Shown here piece by piece: positions 52,810-64,000 of a stretch of 64,000 nucleotides of DNA. The notes under the pieces are model-generated. The model worked only from the letters and a program-made list of their open reading frames with translations, was not told the DNA's origin and made no database searches. Numbering within the stretch: position 1 is the stretch's first letter; every line of letters begins with the position of its first letter. Source of the stretch: Candidatus Gastranaerophilales bacterium (GTDB taxonomy: Bacteria > Cyanobacteriota > Vampirovibrionia > Gastranaerophilales > CAJFVJ01); the NCBI GenBank assembly GCA_944323485.1, contig CALUSR010000006.1, positions 62,001 to 126,000 on the forward strand. The letters are read 5' to 3'. A program made the position numbers and the translations under genes.

Positions 52810-52822
52810 AATGAAACGAGGT

Positions 52823-52896
52823 GGCATAGTAGCTCAGTTGGCTAGAGCACGTGGCTCATACCCGCGAGGTCACTGGTTCGAACCCAGTCTATGCTA
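52823..52896 (+). tRNA. tRNA-Met (CAT anticodon)
   Basis: A 74-base cloverleaf: acceptor GGCATAG/CTATGCT with discriminator A, D arm GCTC...GAGC, anticodon arm CGTGG/CCGCG with loop CTCATAC, and T arm ACTGG/CCAGT with TTCGAAC. The anticodon is CAT. The first pair is G-U, which is unlike initiator tRNA, so elongator Met is preferred; Ile2 is possible. CCA is not encoded. Confidence 0.9.
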
Positions 52897-52902
52897 TTTT
52901 GA

Positions 52903-52974
52903 GGGCTTGTGGCGCAGCGGTAGCGCAGAGGACTCATAATCCTTTGGTCGCTGGTTCGAATCCAGCCGGGCCCA
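52903..52974 (+). tRNA. tRNA-Ile2 (CAT anticodon) or Met
   Basis: A 72-base cloverleaf: acceptor GGGCTTG/CGGGCCC with discriminator A, D arm GCGC...GCGC, anticodon loop CTCATAA with anticodon CAT, T arm GCTGG/CCAGC. The stretch GACTCATAATC followed by TTGGTCGCTGGTTC is close to Escherichia coli tRNA-Ile with lysidine-modified CAT. It is the last host feature before the accessory island. Confidence 0.85.
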
Positions 52975-53020: not shown

Positions 53021-53456
53021 TTGTTTGTTGCTGTAGTTTTTTGTCCAGATTGATTTGTACGGATAGATTGATATTTTTGGAAAGTCCGCTTTGTGTGGGC
53101 TTTTTCAGGTCGGAATTTTAAGTATTCCAAAATAATCAAACTGCCGAACTGGACTTTTTTCGGACTGTACGGATAGATTGAGATTTTCTTAATATAGCTG
53201 TAAAGAAACAGGACAGTATAGAAAAGTGGAACCTGCCTTAAAGTCGCTGTTGGTAAATAATTTTAAATAAATTTAGGGTTTCAGAAAAGTCCAAAATGTC
53301 TGATTACTGTCCTTTATATGTCTAAAAATACCGAAAAAATTTAATAGACATGCCCCAAAGGGTTATTTCCGTAAGAGAAAAGATAAGGACAGTGATAAGA
53401 CATTCATTGTCAAAAATTTAACAGAAGTTCCAGAAAAAAATTTTTCTGTTCATAAA
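53021..53456. other. repeat-rich noncoding left part of the accessory island
   Basis: No gene is seen here. A 22-bp direct repeat beginning TGTACGGATAGATTGA is found at 53056-53077 and 53166-53187 with one mismatch. GGACAGT occurs near 53212 and 53395 directly and as ACTGTCC near 53309. ATGTCTA/TAGACAT forms an inverted pair around 53318-53352. Short repeats clustered beside a tRNA gene are what transposase-binding sites at an element end look like. Confidence 0.5.
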
Positions 53457-53523
53457 CGGAACCTTAACGGAACTTTATTCGGAACCAAACGGAACATTAG
53501 TTTTAGTATGTTTAATGTATAAT
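53457..53523 (+). promoter_or_regulatory. four CGGAAC repeats and -10 box before the DUF262 operon
   Basis: CGGAAC occurs at 53457, 53468, 53480 and 53490 (spacing 11, 12 and 10, about one helix turn), all in the same direction. TATAAT follows at 53518-53523. No -35 box is visible; the last repeat occupies that place. This is the layout of an activator-dependent promoter. The same hexamer appears before the Mor-like gene. Confidence 0.65.
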
Positions 53524-53547
53524 GAAGTTCAAAGGAAAATAAAGCTG

Positions 53548-55272
53548 ATGAATAATGAAATAATACTTGATACAAAGCTTATTGGTGATATAAAAGGAAA
53601 CTTCTTTGTTCCTTCTTATCAAAGAGGTTATCGTTGGGGAAAGTCAGAAGTTACACGTCTTTTAGAAGATTTATGTTCTACCGATGGGAAAAGAAATTAC
53701 TGTCTTCAACCTATTGTTGTAAGAGCAAATGGTGATAAATATGAACTGATAGATGGCCAACAAAGATTAACTACAATATATTTAATTTATAGGTACATGA
53801 ACGAAGTAAGTTTTGGATTTATTGATGAACCACGTTTTACACTTTCTTATAAAACTAGAGAAAAATCAGAAAAATTTCTAAAAACAATAGATGAATCGTG
53901 CAAGGATGACAATATTGACTTTTGGCATATTTGTTCTGCCTATCAAAGTATTAAAGAATGGTTTGACAAAAAGGATAAAAAATCAACTATAACAAATATA
54001 AATAAATATTTTGATGAAATCGTCAAAGTTATATGGTATGAAGTCAGTGAGTCAGAAGATGCTATAAATTTATTCACAAGGCTTAATATTGGTAAAATCC
54101 CGCTTACTAGTGCTGAGCTCGTAAAAGCAATGTTTTTAAGTAGGAGTAAAGAAACAAATCTTGGAAAGAAAAAACAAGAAGAAATTTCTTTGCAATGGGA
54201 TTATATCGAAAAAGAACTTCACAATGATCATTTATGGTATTTTTTAACAAACAAAACAAAAATAAAATATCAGACAAGAATAGATCTAATTCTTGATCTC
54301 ATCTCTGCAAAACCTATTGATAATCGTGAAAAATACTACACTTTTTTTAAATTTGATGAAATGAGCAAAATCGACTCATTGGATAGTATATGGGAGAATA
54401 TTCAACAAACATTTCTTATATTAAAAGATTGGTACGAAAACCATGAATTATACCATAAGATAGGCTATTTAATTGCATCAGAGACACTAACATTGGGAGA
54501 AATTTTTGATATTTCAAAAAATAAAACAAAAAATAAATTTAGGGAAGTTATTGATGAAAAAATAAAAAATAGTATAAAAATCAATGAAAATTATTCCGAA
54601 TTAAGTTACGAAAAAGAAACAGATAGAAATAGAATATCTACCTTATTGTTACTTTTTAATATTGAATCCGTTCGTCAAAATGGTGAAGAAACTCAATGGT
54701 TTCCTTTTGATAAATACAAATATAGTAAGGATGAAAAAGTTTTATGGAGTCTTGAACATATTCATGCACAACATTCTGAGGGGATGAAAACTCAAGAAAC
54801 TTGGAAAACATGGCTTACACTTCATCTTCCTTCTATCCAAGTCGTTAAAAAAGAGTCAAACGAACTTATAGATAAGATAAAATCTGCAATAAAAAAAGAA
54901 AAATTAGAAAGAACAGAATTTGAAGCAATTCAAAAAGATATCATTAATATACTTTCAGTAGAAGGAAATATTGAATATCTACATTCAATATCTAACTTAG
55001 CAATACTTAATTGTGGTGATAATGCAGCATTGAACAATTCAACTTTTGATGTTAAAAGAAATGCAATTATAGAGATGGATAAAGGAGGAAAATATATACC
55101 ATTTTGTACTAAAATGGTCTTTTTAAAATATTACACACCTTCGTCAGATAATCAATTACATTTTTGGGGACATTCTGACAGAGTGGCATACATCAAAGCA
55201 ATAAATGAGATTTTATACTATAAATCTCATTATCTTGATGAACCTATATACCTTGAAGGGGAGGAAAATTAA
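53548..55272 (+). CDS. DUF262/DUF1524 protein (GmrSD-like, putative defence)
   Basis: The 574-residue protein has an N-terminal DUF262 domain with YQRGYRW near residues 24-30 and DGQQRLTT near 69-76, and a C-terminal DUF1524 domain with the HNH-like EHIHAQ near 403 and NNSTFDVKRNA near 495. GmrSD and related type IV restriction enzymes combine these domains to hydrolyse NTP and cut modified DNA. An in-frame ATG at 53515 lies upstream of the -10 box, so ATG 53548, with AAAGGA ahead, is chosen. A second DUF262 gene follows at once. Confidence 0.85.
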   Translation: MNNEIILDTKLIGDIKGNFFVPSYQRGYRWGKSEVTRLLEDLCSTDGKRNYCLQPIVVRANGDKYELIDGQQRLTTIYLIYRYMNEVSFGFIDEPRFTLSYKTREKSEKFLKTIDESCKDDNIDFWHICSAYQSIKEWFDKKDKKSTITNINKYFDEIVKVIWYEVSESEDAINLFTRLNIGKIPLTSAELVKAMFLSRSKETNLGKKKQEEISLQWDYIEKELHNDHLWYFLTNKTKIKYQTRIDLILDLISAKPIDNREKYYTFFKFDEMSKIDSLDSIWENIQQTFLILKDWYENHELYHKIGYLIASETLTLGEIFDISKNKTKNKFREVIDEKIKNSIKINENYSELSYEKETDRNRISTLLLLFNIESVRQNGEETQWFPFDKYKYSKDEKVLWSLEHIHAQHSEGMKTQETWKTWLTLHLPSIQVVKKESNELIDKIKSAIKKEKLERTEFEAIQKDIINILSVEGNIEYLHSISNLAILNCGDNAALNNSTFDVKRNAIIEMDKGGKYIPFCTKMVFLKYYTPSSDNQLHFWGHSDRVAYIKAINEILYYKSHYLDEPIYLEGEEN

Positions 55273-57459
55273 GTGGAAGCTAAACTTTATTCTTTTATTG
55301 ACATTTTCAATAGTGAATTTAATACCGATCAAGAAATTGTAAGACTTGAGCAAATTACAATACCAATCATACAAAGAGATTACGCCCAAGGAAGAAATGA
55401 TCCAAGCATAGAACGTATAAGAGATCGTTTTCTTAATTCTTTGTATGCTGCTATTACCAAAAAGCCTATAATTCTTGATTTTATATATGGTGATATTGAT
55501 AAGTTTGGTAATATGACACCGTTAGATGGTCAACAACGACTTACAACCTTATTTTTACTTTATTGGTATGCTGCAAAAAAAGAAAATATTTCAGAAAACG
55601 AATATAGTTTTCTGAATAAATTCAGTTATGATACAAGATATAGTGCTCGAACTTTTTGTAAATATCTTGTAAAATTTTGTCCATCTTTTGAGGACGCTCT
55701 TTCTAATGAAATTATCGATCAGGAATGGTTCCCACTGGATTGGAAAAAAGACTCTACAATTAGTTCAATGCTTGTAATGCTTGATGCTATAGATGAAAAA
55801 TTTAAAGATGTAGAAAAACTGTGGCAAAAATTAAAAAATAAATCTATTATGTTTTATTTTTTGCCAATCAAAGATATGGGACTTACAGATGAACTTTATA
55901 TAAAAATGAATTCTCGTGGCAAACCTCTAACTATCTTTGAGCATTTTAAAGCCGAATTAGAACGTAATATTCGTATAATAGATGAGAACCTTGCAGACAA
56001 TATAATTTATAAAATTGACCAAGATTGGACTAATTTATTGTGGCGATATAGAAATAGTCATATTGGCTCTGAAGACGATAATATCATTGATGATGAATTT
56101 CTTCGTTATTTTAAATTTATATGTGATATAATCTGTTATAAAAATAAGGAAAATCCAAAAGAAAATAAAGATGAATTTGATTTACTACAGAAATATTTTT
56201 CTCCCGACAATCCAGATGTATTAAAAAATCTTTCTACAATGGAAGCATTTTTTGATTGTTGGTGTAATCTTTCAGGATATAATACTCCTTTTGATTTTTT
56301 TAAATCGTTTATGTCATATAAACATGAATTTAATAAAATTATAGTAGAATCTCGTTTTAACATTGATATCCTTGGAGATTGTCTTCATACATATTCTGAT
56401 AGAAATGGTCGTATAAGATTATTTCCATTGAATAGAATGGTGTTATTATATGCAATCATATTTTATCTTAACAATCATGATAGAATAACAGAAAATGATT
56501 TCAAACGAAGGATTAGAATAATTAATAACTTAATTCAGAATTCGGAAGATGAAATAAGTGATAGGGCGGATAAAAATCGTATTCCCGCTATTTTGGATGA
56601 AGTAGATTACATTCTCATGACAGGAGAGATCAACGATAATATCAGTAGCAACTTTAATATTAATCAATTAGAAGAAGAAAAAGAAAAAATTGCTTTTCTA
56701 AAGGAAAAACCACATTTAATAGAGACATTATTTAGACTTGAAGATCACAGTATGTTATTTGGACAAATTAGCATTTTAGGGTTAGATAATTTAACATATG
56801 CTGAGAGATTTGAATCATTATTCAAGTGTAATTGGGATAAAATAGATTGTGCTCTGATGGCAATAGGTGATTATGGGCAAATGGAACAAAATAGGTGGCG
56901 CTATCAATATGCTTCTAGCGCTATTAAACAAGCTTGGATAAAGCTTTTTCATAAAAGTTCCAATTTTGGCTTTGATAAAACTAGAAATATTCTTGTCAAA
57001 TTGTTGTCTATGCACAAAGAATTTAATGATGAAATCTTAGATAAAATAGCTAAAAATTACACGGATGAATGTTTACGTAACAAAATTTTTCCATTTAGAT
57101 ACTATTATATATGTTATCCCGAATATCGTCCTGGTTCTTATGGAAAATTAAGTAATGGTTCTGCTAAGGATGAACCTTATATGTTTGCGGTACTACAAAC
57201 AAAGGCACAATGGTCGAAAAATGCTTATATTCCTTTTTTAAAGGCTGCTGATGCTGAAAATCTTTCTGTCGATTATATGGGACAACGTCTTATATATGAT
57301 AATGAGCAAATTATTTGTAAAAACGATTCATATATATGCCTAAAGAATAATAATATAGTTTACACAATAAAAATCAATCAAAATGAAAATGGTTTTGATA
57401 TTGAAGATCGCATCTTAAAATTGAAAGAATATATTAGGACTCTTCCTAAATGTAATTAA
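55273..57459 (+). CDS. second DUF262 protein (putative defence partner)
   Basis: The 728-residue protein has a DUF262 domain near the N-terminus (IIQRDYAQGRND about 32-43, LDGQQRLTTLFLLYWYA about 83-99) and a long C-terminal part that I cannot assign; no DUF1524 HNH is visible. The GTG start follows the stop of the previous gene without a gap, with GGGGAGG upstream. Two unlike DUF262 proteins in one operon suggest a two-subunit restriction or abortive system. Confidence 0.82.
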   Translation: MEAKLYSFIDIFNSEFNTDQEIVRLEQITIPIIQRDYAQGRNDPSIERIRDRFLNSLYAAITKKPIILDFIYGDIDKFGNMTPLDGQQRLTTLFLLYWYAAKKENISENEYSFLNKFSYDTRYSARTFCKYLVKFCPSFEDALSNEIIDQEWFPLDWKKDSTISSMLVMLDAIDEKFKDVEKLWQKLKNKSIMFYFLPIKDMGLTDELYIKMNSRGKPLTIFEHFKAELERNIRIIDENLADNIIYKIDQDWTNLLWRYRNSHIGSEDDNIIDDEFLRYFKFICDIICYKNKENPKENKDEFDLLQKYFSPDNPDVLKNLSTMEAFFDCWCNLSGYNTPFDFFKSFMSYKHEFNKIIVESRFNIDILGDCLHTYSDRNGRIRLFPLNRMVLLYAIIFYLNNHDRITENDFKRRIRIINNLIQNSEDEISDRADKNRIPAILDEVDYILMTGEINDNISSNFNINQLEEEKEKIAFLKEKPHLIETLFRLEDHSMLFGQISILGLDNLTYAERFESLFKCNWDKIDCALMAIGDYGQMEQNRWRYQYASSAIKQAWIKLFHKSSNFGFDKTRNILVKLLSMHKEFNDEILDKIAKNYTDECLRNKIFPFRYYYICYPEYRPGSYGKLSNGSAKDEPYMFAVLQTKAQWSKNAYIPFLKAADAENLSVDYMGQRLIYDNEQIICKNDSYICLKNNNIVYTIKINQNENGFDIEDRILKLKEYIRTLPKCN

Positions 57460-57480: not shown

Positions 57481-57789
57481 TTATTTTTCACCCTCAACAA
57501 ATTCTTTAATAACCTTGTATACATATCTTGTAGTGGTTTCGCAAGCTAACACAAGTTTATTAATTGTATATTTAGTTCCATCAAAATTATCTATAATATA
57601 TTGTTTTTTGTATTTCTGATTACAATGAGCATGGATTGAAAACTTTTGCCCTGCTGCATTGAACATTAATTTTTTAGTTGCTTCCAAGCCAATAATAGAA
57701 CACAAAAACTTTAAATCATCTGTTGGTAAATTCTCTTCAGTTATGTATTTTGCCCATACCGGCTCTTCTGTTTTGCAATTTCTAACCAT
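57481..57789 (-). CDS. Mor/C-family transcription regulator
   Basis: The 102-residue protein shows the Mor/MuC pattern: LPTDDLKFLCSIIGLEATKK, LMFNAAGQKFSIH, YIIDNFDGTKYTINKLVLAC and TTRYVYKVIKEFVEG. In phage Mu, Mor and C activate middle and late promoters. The start ATG is behind AGGAG. It faces the DUF262 operon end-to-end, and its promoter carries CGGAAC inverted repeats. By context it probably controls the DUF262 promoter and its own. Confidence 0.7.
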   Translation of the reverse strand: MVRNCKTEEPVWAKYITEENLPTDDLKFLCSIIGLEATKKLMFNAAGQKFSIHAHCNQKYKKQYIIDNFDGTKYTINKLVLACETTTRYVYKVIKEFVEGEK

Positions 57790-58006: not shown

Positions 58007-59974
58007 ATGCAAACTTCAAATGCTGACTGGATTACAACTAAAGAACTGGCAGAAATTAAAGGAGTATCTGAAAGAGCTGTTAGAAAAGCTATTAGTAATA
58101 ATAAATATGTAATCAGAAAATGCTCTAAATCTTACGAAATTTTAGTAACATCTTTAGAAGAAAATGTTAGAGAAAAAATAACAGCTAGTAAAGAAAATTT
58201 GCCACAAGTAACAAATAATTCATATATTGTTCCGGAAATGCAAAAGAAATTAGCTTTAGCAAAATATGATTTAATTAAGAAATGGGATGAGTTTAGAAAG
58301 GATAAGAAAAATAAAACAATAGCAGGAAAAGATTTCCTTGAAGCATATAATCATAATTGTATTTGCGAAGAATTGTTCAATGTAGTAGGTAAAGTTGCAA
58401 TAGGAACAATTTATGAATGGCATAAAAAACTTCGTACCTATAATGATGATTGGCATTGTTTAATTAATAATTACACTTTTGGTGAAAAGACCAGAAAAAC
58501 ATTAATGAAACCTGAAGAGGAAGCCGAATTTCTTAAAAACCTGTTACATCCTAATCAATTAAATATAGGAAAAGCAATCAAACTAACAAAGTTGGCATTA
58601 ACACAACGAGGTTTTAAAAATTTGTGTTGCGACCTTACGTATAGAAGATTTGCCAATAATTATAAAAATGAGCATTATAATACTTGGGTAGAAGCAAGAG
58701 AAGGTAACAAGGCTCTTCACGATAAAGTTCTGCCATATATAACAAGAGACATTTCAAAACTTGAAGTCGGGGATGTACTTATTGGTGATGGACACAGATT
58801 ATCATTTTTTGTTAAACATCCATATACCGGTAAACCTATAAGACCAATGATGGTAGCATACCAGGATTGGAAATCGGGAGGCTTTGTTGGTTTTGAAATA
58901 ATGCTGGAAGAAAATACGCAATGTATTGCAAGTGCATTGAGAAATGCAATCATAAATTTAGGGAAAGTTCCGAAATTTGTTTATCAAGATAACGGGAAAG
59001 CATTTAAAGCAAAATATTTTATAGAAAATGGGCTAAGCGGTTTATTTACTAATCTTGGAATTCAACCTGTTTATGCAAAACCATATAACGCAAAAGCCAA
59101 ACCCATAGAAAGGTTGTTCCGAGAACTACAAGATAGCTGTGAAGTATTGCTTCCTTCTTATACTGGTACAAGTATTATCAAAAAGCCTGCCCAATTAAAA
59201 AGGAATGAAAAATTACATAAATCTCTTTATAAAGTTAATGTTCCAACTCTTGAGCAAGTAGTAAATTTTATTGGGAATTGGGTACAGAAATATCATTATG
59301 AGCAACCTTGTCCTCATATAGCTGGAGAAACGATTGGTAAGGTTCTTGAAAGCGGTAAAGGGGAAGGCGTTAATATAGAAACATTAGACGATTTTATGAT
59401 GGTAAGAGAAATAAAGAAAATTTACAGGAACGGCATTTTATTCTTAAAAAATAACTATTATGACGAAGCTTTATTTGGATATAAAAAAGAAGTGATTATT
59501 AAATACAGCTTGTTCAATTTGAGTTCAATTAAAGTTTATAAATTAAATGGTGAATTTATATGTGAAGCTAAAAGAATTGAGCCAATACATCCATTGGCAA
59601 ATTACTTAGGTGAAGTGAAAGATATAGAAGAGCTTAAGCAAAAAACAAGGATAAAAAAGAAATTAGAAAAACAGACAGAGCAAGAATATATAAACCAAAT
59701 AAAACGTAATCAAGTTCATACCCCATTATTAACAATGGATTTAATTGAGAAGCAGGAAGAGGATGAAATAAATGATTTTAAATTAGCAATAAAAGAAGAA
59801 ATTCAAGCAGATGATTTTAACGGTTGTTTTAATACAAGATTTGAAAAGTATGAATACCTAATGAAACAAGATAAGTTAACTAAAAAAGAACAAGAATGGA
59901 TTTTGGAATACAAATCAACAAGTGAATATGAGCAAATATATGGCGACGATAATAAGGAGGTTTTTAATGCATAA
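58007..59974 (+). CDS. Mu/TnsB-type DDE transposase
   Basis: The 655-residue protein starts with a Mu-type HTH (WITTKELAEIKGVSERAVRK), has a second DNA-binding region (about 75-230), an RNase H-fold integrase core with D261 (LIGDGHRLSF), D328 (VYQDNGKAFKA) and E368 (KPIERLFREL), and a C-terminal beta-barrel of Mu transposases (KEVIIKYSLFNLSSIKVYKL). The ATG has GAGGAG upstream; a GTG 23 codons earlier lacks one. Its end overlaps the ATPase gene by eight bases. It should cut and join transposon ends. Confidence 0.93.
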   Translation: MQTSNADWITTKELAEIKGVSERAVRKAISNNKYVIRKCSKSYEILVTSLEENVREKITASKENLPQVTNNSYIVPEMQKKLALAKYDLIKKWDEFRKDKKNKTIAGKDFLEAYNHNCICEELFNVVGKVAIGTIYEWHKKLRTYNDDWHCLINNYTFGEKTRKTLMKPEEEAEFLKNLLHPNQLNIGKAIKLTKLALTQRGFKNLCCDLTYRRFANNYKNEHYNTWVEAREGNKALHDKVLPYITRDISKLEVGDVLIGDGHRLSFFVKHPYTGKPIRPMMVAYQDWKSGGFVGFEIMLEENTQCIASALRNAIINLGKVPKFVYQDNGKAFKAKYFIENGLSGLFTNLGIQPVYAKPYNAKAKPIERLFRELQDSCEVLLPSYTGTSIIKKPAQLKRNEKLHKSLYKVNVPTLEQVVNFIGNWVQKYHYEQPCPHIAGETIGKVLESGKGEGVNIETLDDFMMVREIKKIYRNGILFLKNNYYDEALFGYKKEVIIKYSLFNLSSIKVYKLNGEFICEAKRIEPIHPLANYLGEVKDIEELKQKTRIKKKLEKQTEQEYINQIKRNQVHTPLLTMDLIEKQEEDEINDFKLAIKEEIQADDFNGCFNTRFEKYEYLMKQDKLTKKEQEWILEYKSTSEYEQIYGDDNKEVFNA

Positions 59975-60656
59975 ATTATTTGTGAAAACACGTAATGTTA
60001 AAAATTTTATTGATTTAATGAACAACCTTATTGATAAATCAAATGAAGTCCCAAAGATGGGATTAATCTATGGTGATCCTGGTTTAGGAAAAAGTCGAAC
60101 AGCAGTTTGGTGGGCAACACAAAATGATGCTGTCTATGTAAGAGCTCAAAATAATATGACAAGTCATGGAATATTGGAAAAAGTTGTGGAAGATTTAGGA
60201 GAAGCACCTTCTAAAAAATCTACAGAATTAATGAAACAATGTATTGCCCATTTAAGACTTCATCCACAGATAGTTATTGTTGATGAAATTGATTATCTAA
60301 TAGGTCATTCAAGAACAATTGAAACTTTGAGGGATTTACACGATTTAACGGGTGCTCCAATTGTCCTGATAGGAATGCATGAATCAAAAACAAAACTTGG
60401 TAAATACAGACATTTGTATGACAGAATTTCTGAAATTGTCGAATTTAAACCGTTTTCTAAAGAAGATATGGACATTATTGTAGAAGAATTATCAGAAATA
60501 AAAATAACAGACGAGGCTAAAGAAATATTTTTTGAAAAAACAAATCGTTTTAGACAAGTAATTAAGGGGATTGCTTTACTTGAAAATATAGCTAAAACAA
60601 ATGGGTTGAATAAAATTGATGTTAAACAAGTGAAAGGATTAAACATTGAAAAATAA
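59967..60656 (+). CDS. MuB/TnsC-type AAA+ transposition ATPase
   Basis: The 229-residue AAA+ protein has a Walker A GDPGLGKS near residues 36-43, Walker B IVIVDEIDYL near 102-111 and a sensor stretch PIVLIGMHESK. It matches TniB/MuB/TnsC-type ATPases that pick target DNA and stimulate the transposase. It starts at ATG 59967 behind a perfect AGGAGG, inside the end of the transposase gene, and overlaps the next gene by 11 bases, so the three proteins are translationally coupled. Confidence 0.92.
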   Translation: MHKLFVKTRNVKNFIDLMNNLIDKSNEVPKMGLIYGDPGLGKSRTAVWWATQNDAVYVRAQNNMTSHGILEKVVEDLGEAPSKKSTELMKQCIAHLRLHPQIVIVDEIDYLIGHSRTIETLRDLHDLTGAPIVLIGMHESKTKLGKYRHLYDRISEIVEFKPFSKEDMDIIVEELSEIKITDEAKEIFFEKTNRFRQVIKGIALLENIAKTNGLNKIDVKQVKGLNIEK

Positions 60657-62292
60657 AGATTTAATAATAAAAGTAGCAAGAAGATTAGATAAATTTAATC
60701 TTGATGAAATAATTGTAGTATCTGAACTTCAAGAACAAGAAGTGAAAGCGATTTTATCTGATTTAATTAAAGAACAGGTAATTATTAAAAGTAGTAACAA
60801 ATATTTTTTTAATAATAAAAGAAATAATGAGCAAAATGAAATATTATCTACAAAAAATAACACTCTTAAACCTATTATTCTTGAAGAAGAGGAAGGTTAT
60901 GAGGAGCTACTAAAATATAATAAAGATGTTCAAAATAAGATAAAAAGGTATGTCGCAGCGATAAATTTTGTAATTAATGCTGGAAAAGGTAATTTAAAGC
61001 GTGTGGTAGAATTATTTAATGAAACTTCAGGCTTAAAGCGAGTTCCATATTCAATTTTAGTAAAACTTCTTCATAACTATAAAATGTATGGGTTTAAAGG
61101 GATATTACCTAAATACCATAATCATGGTGAAAGCCCTATTCCAGATGAATTATACACGTGTTTTAAAAATTTTTATCTAACAAAAGAAAAATTAAGTGCC
61201 AAAGAGGCCCTATATCGTGCACAAAAGTTATTACACGATGAACAAAGAATTGAACAACCTTATACATATAACCTAAACTCTTTTACAAGAAAAATTAAAA
61301 CGGATTTTACGGAAGAACAAATTAAATACTTTAGAAATAATGTAAAACCATTAAAAGCTAAAATTTCTAATGATGAAAATGATGAACCGCTTGATATGGA
61401 GTTTAAAAATGCTGCCAGAATTTATCTTAATCGATTAAAAATAGAAAATAAGCAAGAAAGATTATTGCATGAGAAAACATATTACAAAAATCATCTGAAA
61501 GAATATTTTGACAATTTAACTATTCGAGAAATTACGCCCAAAGTTGTTGCTAAGTATAAACAAAGTATGTTTGATAAAGGTTTTAAATTAGTATCTGTGA
61601 AGCAATATATTTTACTCTTAAAAGCTATAATAAAAGGTGTTTGCCCCAAAATAAACAATTTAGTAACAAGAGAGGATAAGGATCGTAGAAATGCTTATGC
61701 ACTAGATATGAATATTCTAACTGAAGATGAAATTCTAAATTTACTCAATATATGTAAATTGAAATACCCTGAAGCCTATCCTATAATTTATATTTCATTA
61801 TCAACAGGAGCTAGTGTTCCTGAATTATTGGGGTTAACTTGGGATAGGGTAGACTTTGAAGAAAATACAATATTTTTAAAATACTTTCTATATGATGAAC
61901 GTTTAATTACAAATAGAAGCGGTACTTCAAAAAGAAAATTAAAAATTGATAAAAGGATGACTGAGATTTTGAAAGAAAAGTATAAAGCTACAAAACCTTT
62001 ACCTGCTGATTTTGTTTTTAGATTTTCTTCACCCAAACTACCACAACAATATTTTGAAAATGTGGTATTAAATGGTTTATCCAAAAAATTGAGAATTCAA
62101 AGGATCTATCCAAGTGATTTACAACATAACTTTACTAATTTATGCCTTAAGCAAAAAATCCCTTTTACATATATACAAAAATCATTAGGGTATTTTGGTA
62201 TTATAAACTTTGTTAAAATATATCGAAATCTAATAGAGCAGTCAGAAGAAAAATACTATAATCCGTTAGAAAATTTAAACCCTCTAAAATGA
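60646..62292 (+). CDS. transposase-like DNA-binding region fused to a catalytically dead tyrosine recombinase
   Basis: The 548-residue protein has a winged-helix-like start (1-57), a region (about 85-240, with KGILPKYHNHGESPIPDELY) resembling the DNA-binding part of Mu-type transposases, a core-binding region (about 250-330), and a tyrosine-recombinase fold (about 355-535). Catalytic positions are changed: TGLR reads TGAS (387-390), HxxR reads SDLQ (490-493), LGH reads LGY (514-516); only the Tyr (Y526, KIYRNL) remains. TTG start with AAAGGA. It probably serves in target or end recognition. Confidence 0.8.
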   Translation: MKNKDLIIKVARRLDKFNLDEIIVVSELQEQEVKAILSDLIKEQVIIKSSNKYFFNNKRNNEQNEILSTKNNTLKPIILEEEEGYEELLKYNKDVQNKIKRYVAAINFVINAGKGNLKRVVELFNETSGLKRVPYSILVKLLHNYKMYGFKGILPKYHNHGESPIPDELYTCFKNFYLTKEKLSAKEALYRAQKLLHDEQRIEQPYTYNLNSFTRKIKTDFTEEQIKYFRNNVKPLKAKISNDENDEPLDMEFKNAARIYLNRLKIENKQERLLHEKTYYKNHLKEYFDNLTIREITPKVVAKYKQSMFDKGFKLVSVKQYILLLKAIIKGVCPKINNLVTREDKDRRNAYALDMNILTEDEILNLLNICKLKYPEAYPIIYISLSTGASVPELLGLTWDRVDFEENTIFLKYFLYDERLITNRSGTSKRKLKIDKRMTEILKEKYKATKPLPADFVFRFSSPKLPQQYFENVVLNGLSKKLRIQRIYPSDLQHNFTNLCLKQKIPFTYIQKSLGYFGIINFVKIYRNLIEQSEEKYYNPLENLNPLK

Positions 62293-62316
62293 ACCCTAAG
62301 TGGTTCATTTTTTATT
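62287..62316 (+). terminator. terminator of the transposition operon
   Basis: AAATGAACC (62287-62295) pairs with GGTTCATTT (62302-62310) around CTAAGT, followed by TTTATTTTAG on the plus strand. Confidence 0.8.
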
Positions 62317-62387
62317 TTAGTATATAAAACTATATAAAATGAATTTTATAACCCTTAATGGCGGATTTGAACACTTTTTGAACGGCA

Positions 62388-62621
62388 TTAAAATCTAGTT
62401 TGAATATTCACTTCCGGATAATTTATAAAATATGCATTTAAAGTATCAGAATCTTGTCTAAGATTATGAATAATAGGAGTAATATTTCTAAGCTCTTCGT
62501 ATTCTTGTTGTTTTTGACAGAAATAATCAATTACAACAACCATATTATAAATCCGCTCTGCTAATTTTTCTAACTCCCTAAAATCTTTTTGTTTAATGCG
62601 ATATTTCTTACTTTTACTCAT
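62388..62621 (-). CDS. 77-residue unknown protein of the island
   Basis: From ATG 62621, behind AGGAGG, the frame encodes MSKSKKYRIKQKDFRELEKL and a helical remainder with no known motif. It is basic at the N-terminus. It points toward the transposition operon on the other strand. It may be a regulator or an accessory protein of the element. Confidence 0.65.
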   Translation of the reverse strand: MSKSKKYRIKQKDFRELEKLAERIYNMVVVIDYFCQKQQEYEELRNITPIIHNLRQDSDTLNAYFINYPEVNIQTRF

Positions 62622-62770
62622 ACAACCTCCTAATGTAAACAACACATTAGCGTGAAAGTAAAACAAAAGCATTCAAATCTTTACAGAACAACACAATCAT
62701 TATGATTAGCTTGTAAAATATTTTCCAATTATAGCAATTTTTGTTGTTTTAAGGTGAATGAATGTCGCTT

Positions 62771-63820
62771 CTATTGAGGTATTAAAATTCCAAGTTTCGA
62801 ATCGTATTGGTTGATAAATCTAACTTTTGTCATAACTTCCTCTTCGCCGATTATTAAATCAATATTACTTTGCATTCGAGCCAATGCGTCTTCATCATGG
62901 TAATAAATATTAATAATAGATTTTTCTTTTGCCAAAAGAATATGTTTCAAAATATTATGGTCGGTTTTATCAAGAGAATGTCCTATTATGTGGAATGTCG
63001 GAACATATATTTTCTTAGGGTATTTTAACTCATTTAACAGTTCTTGATATGGTTCTATTGTTCCATATTTATGTCTTTGATGATGTTTTTTAAATATATT
63101 AAATTCGACAGGAATTTGTTCATTATCAAAGCTATGAGTTCCCAAAACCATATTACAGCTATCTTCATTATTTATTTTTCCATGTACATAAACTGCTTTT
63201 GTTTTTATTCCGCAAGAACTATAATTGAAATTTATTTTATAAAGCTGTTCACATGTATCTGTATAATTAAAATTCAACAAGCTTACACAATCACTATTTA
63301 CACGTAAGTTAAATTTGGGCGTATTTTTTATTTTTCTATTTTCTTCTTCAACTAAATATTTTTCAAACTCTTTTACAAAATCACGAAGTTGACTATATAA
63401 AAAGTTAACAAAATCTTTGATTGTTACACAATAACAATCGTTAGCGTTATAAAAGTTTACAGGTTCTCTAAAATATTTTTGAGCTTCATCAAAATTAAAT
63501 TTTCTATAATCTTTCGAAATAAAAAAAACTATATCTTTATATCTTTCATACCAAACACCATTTTTAAAATAAGGCAACTTGCTCAGTTTTGTAATTACAT
63601 TATAAATCTCATTTTCAAGATCAATCCATTTATCACCGGCTAGTGTTTTATTTAAAAAATGTTTAACCCAAACATTGTTATATAAAAAGTTGTTGCTATG
63701 AACTGTACCAACGCTATTAATACTACTATATTTTTCTTGGCAATATTTTAAAAAATCATTATATTTAGTGTCTAATTTGTGAGCTAAATCAAATCCATTT
63801 CCTAAAATCAAAATATCCAT
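62771..63820 (-). CDS. AbiH family abortive-infection protein
   Basis: The 349-residue protein starts MDILILGNGFDLAHKLDTKY, the nucleotide-binding motif (GNGFDLAHxLxTKY) of the AbiH family, known from lactococcal phage resistance. Further family stretches are VYVHGKINNEDSCNMVLGTH and IIGHSLDKTDHNILKHIL. The ATG at 63820 has AGGAG nine bases upstream; the longer frame to 63967 lacks a site. It follows the transposition module and adds to the defence cargo or lies just outside the element. Confidence 0.88.
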   Translation of the reverse strand: MDILILGNGFDLAHKLDTKYNDFLKYCQEKYSSINSVGTVHSNNFLYNNVWVKHFLNKTLAGDKWIDLENEIYNVITKLSKLPYFKNGVWYERYKDIVFFISKDYRKFNFDEAQKYFREPVNFYNANDCYCVTIKDFVNFLYSQLRDFVKEFEKYLVEEENRKIKNTPKFNLRVNSDCVSLLNFNYTDTCEQLYKINFNYSSCGIKTKAVYVHGKINNEDSCNMVLGTHSFDNEQIPVEFNIFKKHHQRHKYGTIEPYQELLNELKYPKKIYVPTFHIIGHSLDKTDHNILKHILLAKEKSIINIYYHDEDALARMQSNIDLIIGEEEVMTKVRFINQYDSKLGILIPQ

Positions 63821-64000
63821 AGAACTACTCCTGATATTCTTTAAAGTTTTCCACTTGTTCCATAACTTTATTAAATGCTCATGTACGGTAAGGAAGCAAG
63901 CAACCGAAAACAAGAGATAGACCGCCAGCACTACACTATTCCGAACCAAAGACCAAAAGATAAGCATTGTGGGAAAATCTAAACTTTTGGATTTTCCTAC
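63821..64000. other. right-edge region without a recognised gene
   Basis: These 180 bases before abiH hold a stretch richer in GC (63890-63950) and, at the very end, GGAAAATC/GATTTTCC as an inverted repeat (63971-63998). No gene or transposon end could be identified; the sequence is cut by the window edge. Confidence 0.3.

Follow-up and report, generated by a model that had tools for sequence, protein, structure and literature searches.

Target selectors have already been mapped for Tn7-like elements. Among them, selectors containing a dead recombinase are known: TnsF of the Tn7-like element Tn6022 is a characterized target selector in which the tyrosine recombinase is inactivated (Faure et al. 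2023; PMC10293859). Attachment (att) sites at tRNA genes are likewise known, both for Tn7-like elements using TniQ/TnsD and for CRISPR-associated transposons (CASTs) of types I-B2, I-D, and V-K (PMC11406308). A survey of TnsC set the MuB clade apart, and selectors of that clade were not described (PMC10293859). Here, a window of 64,000 nucleotides (the whole stretch of DNA that was analyzed) from Candidatus Gastranaerophilales bacterium (contig CALUSR010000006.1) was found to carry a transposon with MuA- and MuB-type genes followed by a third gene, here called gene 3, that encodes a catalytically dead tyrosine recombinase fold. The explanation favored, with moderate confidence, is that this is a Mu-type DDE transposon entering the 3' flanks of tRNA genes and that gene 3 is its target selector. 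The combination of a dead recombinase and tRNA sites in Mu-type machinery, with a winged-helix adaptor and no TniQ in the operon, was not found in the literature searched.

A three-gene operon ending in a dead recombinase

The three genes form an operon with a ribosome-binding site on each and with ATG, ATG, and TTG start codons, respectively (Table 1). The overlaps of 8 bp (MuA/MuB) and 11 bp (MuB/gene 3) agree with those given in a preliminary description of this DNA. Matches to phrog_310, phrog_296, and Mu-transpos_C placed the first two proteins in the MuA and MuB families, as in Mu-type transposons; candidate DDE motifs lie near residues 258, 326, and 365 of MuA, and both Walker A and Walker B of MuB are intact. 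A Mor-like regulator is encoded upstream in the opposite direction, and at the equivalent position in loci L032, L033, and L034 (L and G denote loci and genomes used for comparison), although its Pfam Mor match (E = 0.0017) falls below the cut-off of that family. Profile scans of the window core proteins gave no match to TniQ/TnsD, and the sampled loci hold gene 3 or a relative in the third slot. No TnsA-like match was obtained among the window proteins scanned, the full copies having been scanned in part.

In Pfam, gene 3 matched Phage_integrase over residues 357 to 529 (E = 4e-9) and, weakly, the Mu Igamma model over residues 161 to 241. Its sequence alone found no direct match in the PDB, but a profile built from its relatives reached Tn1549 Int, XerA, and, weakly, the MuA Igamma structure. 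An AlphaFold model was also matched by Foldseek to Tn1549 Int (E = 2.8e-9) and to XerA. With a mean predicted local distance difference test (pLDDT) score of 83 but a predicted template modeling (pTM) score of 0.41, the single domains of this model are good and their arrangement is unreliable.

The recombinase fold had been described beforehand as noncatalytic, and the residues at the catalytic positions bore this out: R1, H1, R2, and H3 are replaced by S, S, Q, and Y, with the nucleophile Tyr position retained. In an alignment of operonic recombinase domains with stand-alone integrases of the order, H1 was gone in 30/30 and R1 in 29/30 of the former. An intact R-H-R-H/W-Y set in homologues, which the preliminary description had named as contrary evidence, was found in none of the 30 operonic domains, compared with 8/8 stand-alone integrases. 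The operonic domains may share one origin, with which the sequence tree is compatible, though with weak support (79/97). In two loci, L036 (10656 to 13973) and L037 (5157 to 8432), a tandem pair of full-length gene 3 homologues follows MuB, both catalytically dead.

Element ends, target duplications, and an empty site

The element reaches well outside the operon, to a left end at 53199 adjoining two tRNA-Met genes. This end, TGTAAAGAAACAGGACAGTA, is common to copies in other Gastranaerophilales genomes, in which the sequence before it is unrelated. The right end, ...TTAATTAACA, was seen in longer relatives and lies beyond the contig edge in the window genome. The ends are of the TG...CA form, and, as expected of a Mu-type element, 5-bp target duplications were observed, in 7 of the 12 copies having both ends (TTGGA, TCCGG, TTGGT, CTTAT, GTGGG, TTTAT, and CCACA). 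Full copies measure 14 to 19 kb and are laid out as left end, cargo A, Mor-like regulator (reverse), MuA, MuB, gene 3, cargo B, and right end.

The comparison of filled and empty sites that had been proposed for mapping the ends also yielded an empty site. Genomes G266 (93%) and G052 (84%) have an uninterrupted tRNA-Gln and gene where G078 holds L080, a copy of 16.6 kb whose insertion at this tRNA site disrupts a gene conserved in relatives. At the tRNA-Ser of G050 a clean empty site was not found, the matches being partial and another island lying between, and the L080 site was used instead.

Because the window departs from its similarity to L026 and L027 after 63879, the right end of the element is not in the window. 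Over 63880 to 64000 and the final 179 contig bases, similarity to all other copies is lost inside the 3' end of an hsdR-like gene, and no match was found among the loci compared; this sequence could be another insertion or the assembly end. Two incomplete forms were also observed. L073 (G063:C8, ~8.2 kb) has both ends, but its left end leads straight into cargo and a transposition core was not seen; it is possibly a nonautonomous cargo element. L041 (10843 to 11448, G022) is an internally deleted remnant of a window-type core, with the N-terminal part of gene 3 fused to its last residues, ~80 bp behind a tRNA-Ala gene.

Insertion at the 3' side of tRNA genes

Insertion sites were compared for 20 window-type copies with a left end found. 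A same-strand tRNA gene lay 49 to 381 bp before the left end in 12 copies, and an opposite-strand tRNA gene lay 40 to 72 bp after the right end in 3. Thus, 15/20 insertions were near a tRNA gene (40 to 381 bp), and 15/15 have the 3' end of the tRNA gene pointing toward the element. For 42 tRNA genes in 2.05 Mb, a random insertion would fall within 400 bp of a tRNA 3' end in 0.8% of cases. The probability of 15/20 by chance is then ~8e-28, in a model that treats the sites as separate events and keeps shared host ancestry out of the statistic; they were so counted because both the flanks and the five-base target sequences differ. In the window genome, all three MuA-family elements are on the 3' side of a tRNA gene (Met, Ser, and Ala).

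The tRNA genes for Met, Ser, Gln, Ile, His, and Phe were all used as sites, so that reading is not tied to any single isoacceptor. Of the other copies, L095 follows a 3' remnant of tRNA-Ser, L026 is located within an end-like repeat from related elements, L081 immediately follows such a repeat, and no tRNA was seen for L086 and L090. An Rfam scan of seven loci without a left-side tRNA found no non-tRNA RNA target, and three of these proved to have a right-side tRNA.

The larger gaps (225 to 321 bp) between tRNA gene and element, in the window, L032, L033, and L082, hold a palindromic repeat. It is similar to left-end regions in sister Mu-like families, and a sequence like it was found behind the tRNA to the left of L048 and L149. 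From its sequence, the repeat is probably an older element end or a remnant, and the presence of such a left-end-like palindrome in the large gaps suggests that elements have inserted more than once at the same tRNA genes. The possibility that the 155-bp palindrome is a stand-alone miniature inverted-repeat transposable element was set aside, given its resemblance to the left-end regions of sister elements. About one-third of the relatives searched contain it, in 1 to 4 copies per genome and frequently <150 bp downstream of a tRNA gene, and in G062 a window-type element is inserted into it, with the duplication TCCGG.

The third slot across Gastranaerophilales

MuA relatives (E < 1e-60) were detected in 163 of 286 Gastranaerophilales genomes, and in ~80 loci examined, MuA was almost always followed by MuB and then by a third gene. 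The same winged helix opens 88/89 of the third-gene products. Behind it stand varying combinations of a Mu Igamma-like domain, a SAM-like domain, a full or truncated recombinase, or a domain termed FCAG, for which no Pfam family stood out and no PDB fold was found at E <= 0.001. In a phylum-wide search, the N-terminal half of gene 3 was confined to Gastranaerophilales (68/386 genomes, some of the matches being MuA-like transposases that share the Igamma-like part). Viral contigs yielded one partial relative only.

The type of site clusters on the MuA tree. Left-side tRNA genes were found with window-type elements, with those whose third gene is of the winged helix-Mu Igamma type (wHTH-MuIg), and with some of the wHTH-FCAG type; one wHTH-FCAG clade has right-side tRNA genes, mostly Asn. 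In the wHTH-SAM-cat clade, with a truncated recombinase domain, 0/9 elements were near a tRNA gene, two of them sharing one site (Fisher P = 2e-4). The wHTH-FCAG third genes of L113 to L121, L123, L124, L127, L128, and L130 belong to elements with a right-side tRNA, mostly Asn.

A tandem of two different MuA/MuB pairs, followed by a Mor-like gene, was observed in four genomes. In these loci, a MuA of 665 to 678 amino acids and a third gene precede a MuA of 641 to 678 amino acids and a MuB of 292 amino acids; the second MuA may be the source of the Mu Igamma-like domain of gene 3.

Proposed function of gene 3

If gene 3 is the target selector, its noncutting recombinase fold would bind the tRNA gene or its 3' flank, much as tyrosine integrases do at tRNA att sites. 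Since many isoacceptors are used, the T-arm sequence common to tRNA genes would be the obvious candidate for what is read. The winged helix and the Mu-like domain would recruit MuB and the MuA-end complex, and the latter would join the ends at a distance of 40 to 110 bp, or at a larger one if an older element end intervenes. By analogy with TnsC of Tn7, MuB would bridge selector and transposase. That gene 3 reads the site is inferred, as are the portion of the tRNA region it recognizes and its contacts with MuB.

Support for a selector comes from the strict linkage of the three genes, from the loss of catalysis in a retained fold, from the precedent of TnsF, from a likely DNA-binding module in every version of the third gene, and from the difference in site type between third-gene types. 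As the element mostly sits just behind tRNA genes, the data suggest a dead recombinase turned into an address-reader for transposition. Several observations weigh against this. Recombinase-free third genes (wHTH-MuIg and wHTH-FCAG) are likewise found at tRNA genes, so that the choice of tRNA might be due to the winged helix, to MuB, or to MuA. A clade sharing the full domain order (L132, L145, L142, L143, and L148) lies away from tRNA genes on the side and over the length examined, the domain type of the third gene is confounded with MuA phylogeny, and the distances to the tRNA vary, unlike those of Tn7 at glmS. Given the tRNA sites of the recombinase-free sisters, the dead recombinase is one of several modules of the slot and may or may not be the tRNA reader. 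The idea that the recombinase domain alone explains the tRNA sites was rejected as unproven.

The tRNA-proximal recognition suggested in the preliminary description thus holds as a description of where the element inserts. Its selector proposal withstood both of the tests it had set, a family member being found behind MuA and MuB in nearly all loci examined rather than travelling separately. To speak of a new kind of selector overstates the case, however, because TnsF, with its inactivated tyrosine recombinase, had already been characterized (PMC10293859).

Gene 3 could instead have an architectural or end-binding role, for example in the manner of an additional MuA DNA-binding module or of a protein that bends DNA, and thereby aid transpososome assembly, with the sites set by MuB, MuA, or accessible DNA behind tRNA genes. 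The Mu Igamma domain in MuA binds transposon ends, and gene 3 contains a domain like it; moreover, tRNA-side insertion is common to sister elements with other third-gene domains. A generic preference would nevertheless be expected in all clades, yet the wHTH-SAM-cat clade, with the same ATPase family and in related hosts, lacks it, and phage Mu, itself equipped with MuA and MuB, inserts at widely spread sites and spares mature tRNA sequence, even though insertions into the leader and trailing regions of tRNAs occur (PMC7350765). An architectural role is regarded as unlikely, though with appreciable weight. Far less probable is that a resolvase or integrase of an earlier stage has decayed into what is now gene 3, leaving a passenger or a transcriptional regulator. 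The catalytic residues are gone and several relatives have truncated recombinase domains, but gene 3 is an intact, overlapping open reading frame in the slot behind MuB, and the winged helix stays constant across domain swaps. Since the frame is kept in distant relatives (~20 to 60% identity), a decayed passenger is not expected. Similarly improbable is an origin of the pattern by selection, in which insertions elsewhere were lost and tRNA 3' flanks served as safe harbors. Many elements do integrate at tRNA genes, which are common and tolerated as sites (PMC11406308), but the observed placement, 15/20 within 400 bp and all on the 3' side, stands against 0.8% of the genome, compact sister elements in related hosts persist elsewhere, and the L080 insertion broke a conserved gene.

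A broader proposal has in our judgment an even chance of being correct: a Mu clade with its own order-wide selectors, in which a constant winged-helix adaptor and exchangeable DNA readers (dead tyrosine recombinase, Mu Igamma-like, and FCAG) turn random Mu transposition into tRNA-site insertion without TniQ.

Defense cargo

Near-identical cores carry sharply different cargo, with swappable antiphage genes flanking the core on both sides (Table 1). The left cargo is a GmrSD-like pair in the window and L026, a Ser/Thr kinase in L024, and a retron-type reverse transcriptase-protease in L025. The right cargo comprises AbiH and type I restriction in L026 and a restriction-modification set in L024 and L025, whose nuclease we take, from its sequence, to be DpnII-like, a label unconfirmed by family match. 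The AbiH-like gene of the window probably starts near 63820, as in L026. On both sides of L024, L025, and L026, the genes were either defense genes or unassigned, with no phage structural genes among the cargo proteins checked (part of the cargo was scanned). Defense cargo is common in Tn7-like elements as well.

Table 1. Features of the element, its target site, and related tandem loci (window positions unless a locus is named).
Feature	Position	Strand	Evidence
Two tRNA-Met genes, probable target, 3' ends toward element	52822..52974	+	ARAGORN
Palindromic repeat between tRNA and element	53031..53185	+	Copies behind other tRNA genes; left-side likeness in L048 and L149
Element left end, TGTAAAGAAACAGGACAGTA...	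53199..53495	+	~297 bp common to copies with different flanks
Cargo: GmrSD_N/HEC-06-like defense protein	53515..55272	+	Pfam 9e-35; PADLOC HEC-06 1e-23
Cargo: second GmrSD_N protein	55273..57459	+	Pfam 9e-20
Mor-like regulator, divergent from operon, conserved part of element core	57481..57789	-	Pfam Mor E 0.0017; phrog_836 1.6e-5
MuA-type DDE transposase, 655 amino acids	58007..59974	+	phrog_310 E 8e-95; Pfam Mu-transpos_C; DDE motif positions
MuB-type AAA ATPase, 229 amino acids	59967..60656	+	phrog_296 E 1.6e-50; TniB 3e-9; AAA_22; Walker A/B
Gene 3, proposed target selector, 548 amino acids, TTG start	60646..62292	+	Open reading frame; Pfam; domain search; catalytic alignment; AlphaFold; Foldseek
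Gene 3 residues 5-55, winged helix	60658..60810	+	Domain search; AlphaFold2 helices and beta wing
Gene 3 residues 117-231, Mu Igamma-like DNA-binding domain	60994..61338	+	HTH_Tnp_Mu_2; domain search; PDB 2ezh (MuA Igamma) weak, E 0.04
Gene 3 residues 251-329, SAM-like core-binding domain of tyrosine recombinases	61396..61632	+	Phage_int_SAM_3; domain search
Gene 3 residues 356-530, tyrosine recombinase catalytic fold, dead	61711..62235	+	R1=S, H1=S, R2=Q, H3=Y
Conserved segment after gene 3, before right-hand cargo diverges	62293..62631		L024/L025/L026 alignments
Cargo: AbiH-like abortive infection protein	62771..63967	-	Pfam AbiH 5e-34; PADLOC
Last codons of hsdR-like gene	63826..63879	-	Sequence comparison with L026/L027
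Tandem MuA/MuB loci	L040 5552-13585; L043 1953-10074; L048 1048-9512; L044 7407-16471		

Comparison with known systems

If the proposal is correct, dead recombinases were co-opted as address-readers at least twice, in Tn7-like and in Mu-type machinery. The element would then represent an insertion system that is compact and needs no guide, that uses a readable site (tRNA 3' flanks), and whose reading module is swapped in nature. It would also illustrate how antiphage genes are spread and shuffled by gut Gastranaerophilales.

With phage Mu and Mu-like phages, the element shares the MuA/MuB families, TG...CA ends, 5-bp duplications, and a Mor-like regulator. It differs in its defense cargo, third transposition gene, and strong site preference, Mu itself inserting widely. 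Tn7-like elements and CASTs with att sites at tRNA genes likewise use a transposase, an ATPase, and a selector (the role proposed here for gene 3) that guides insertion beside tRNA genes, but their selectors are TniQ/TnsD or CRISPR RNA, neither of which was found in the window operon. The fold of the C-terminal half of gene 3 is that of Tn1549/Tn916-type and Xer recombinases, from which gene 3 is set apart by loss of the catalytic R, H, R, and H, by its fused Mu-type DNA-binding modules, and by the DDE transposase encoded with it. TnsF is similar in being an inactivated tyrosine recombinase encoded beside a DDE transposase and an AAA ATPase. However, TniQ is the protein through which TnsF works, and TnsF carries zinc fingers at its N terminus, has a catalytic domain that is partial, and takes comM as its target (PMC10293859). 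By comparison with that description, gene 3 belongs to MuA/MuB machinery with no TniQ found in the operon, has a winged helix and a Mu Igamma-like domain at its N terminus in place of zinc fingers, retains a nearly complete recombinase fold, and is associated with sites in tRNA 3' flanks.

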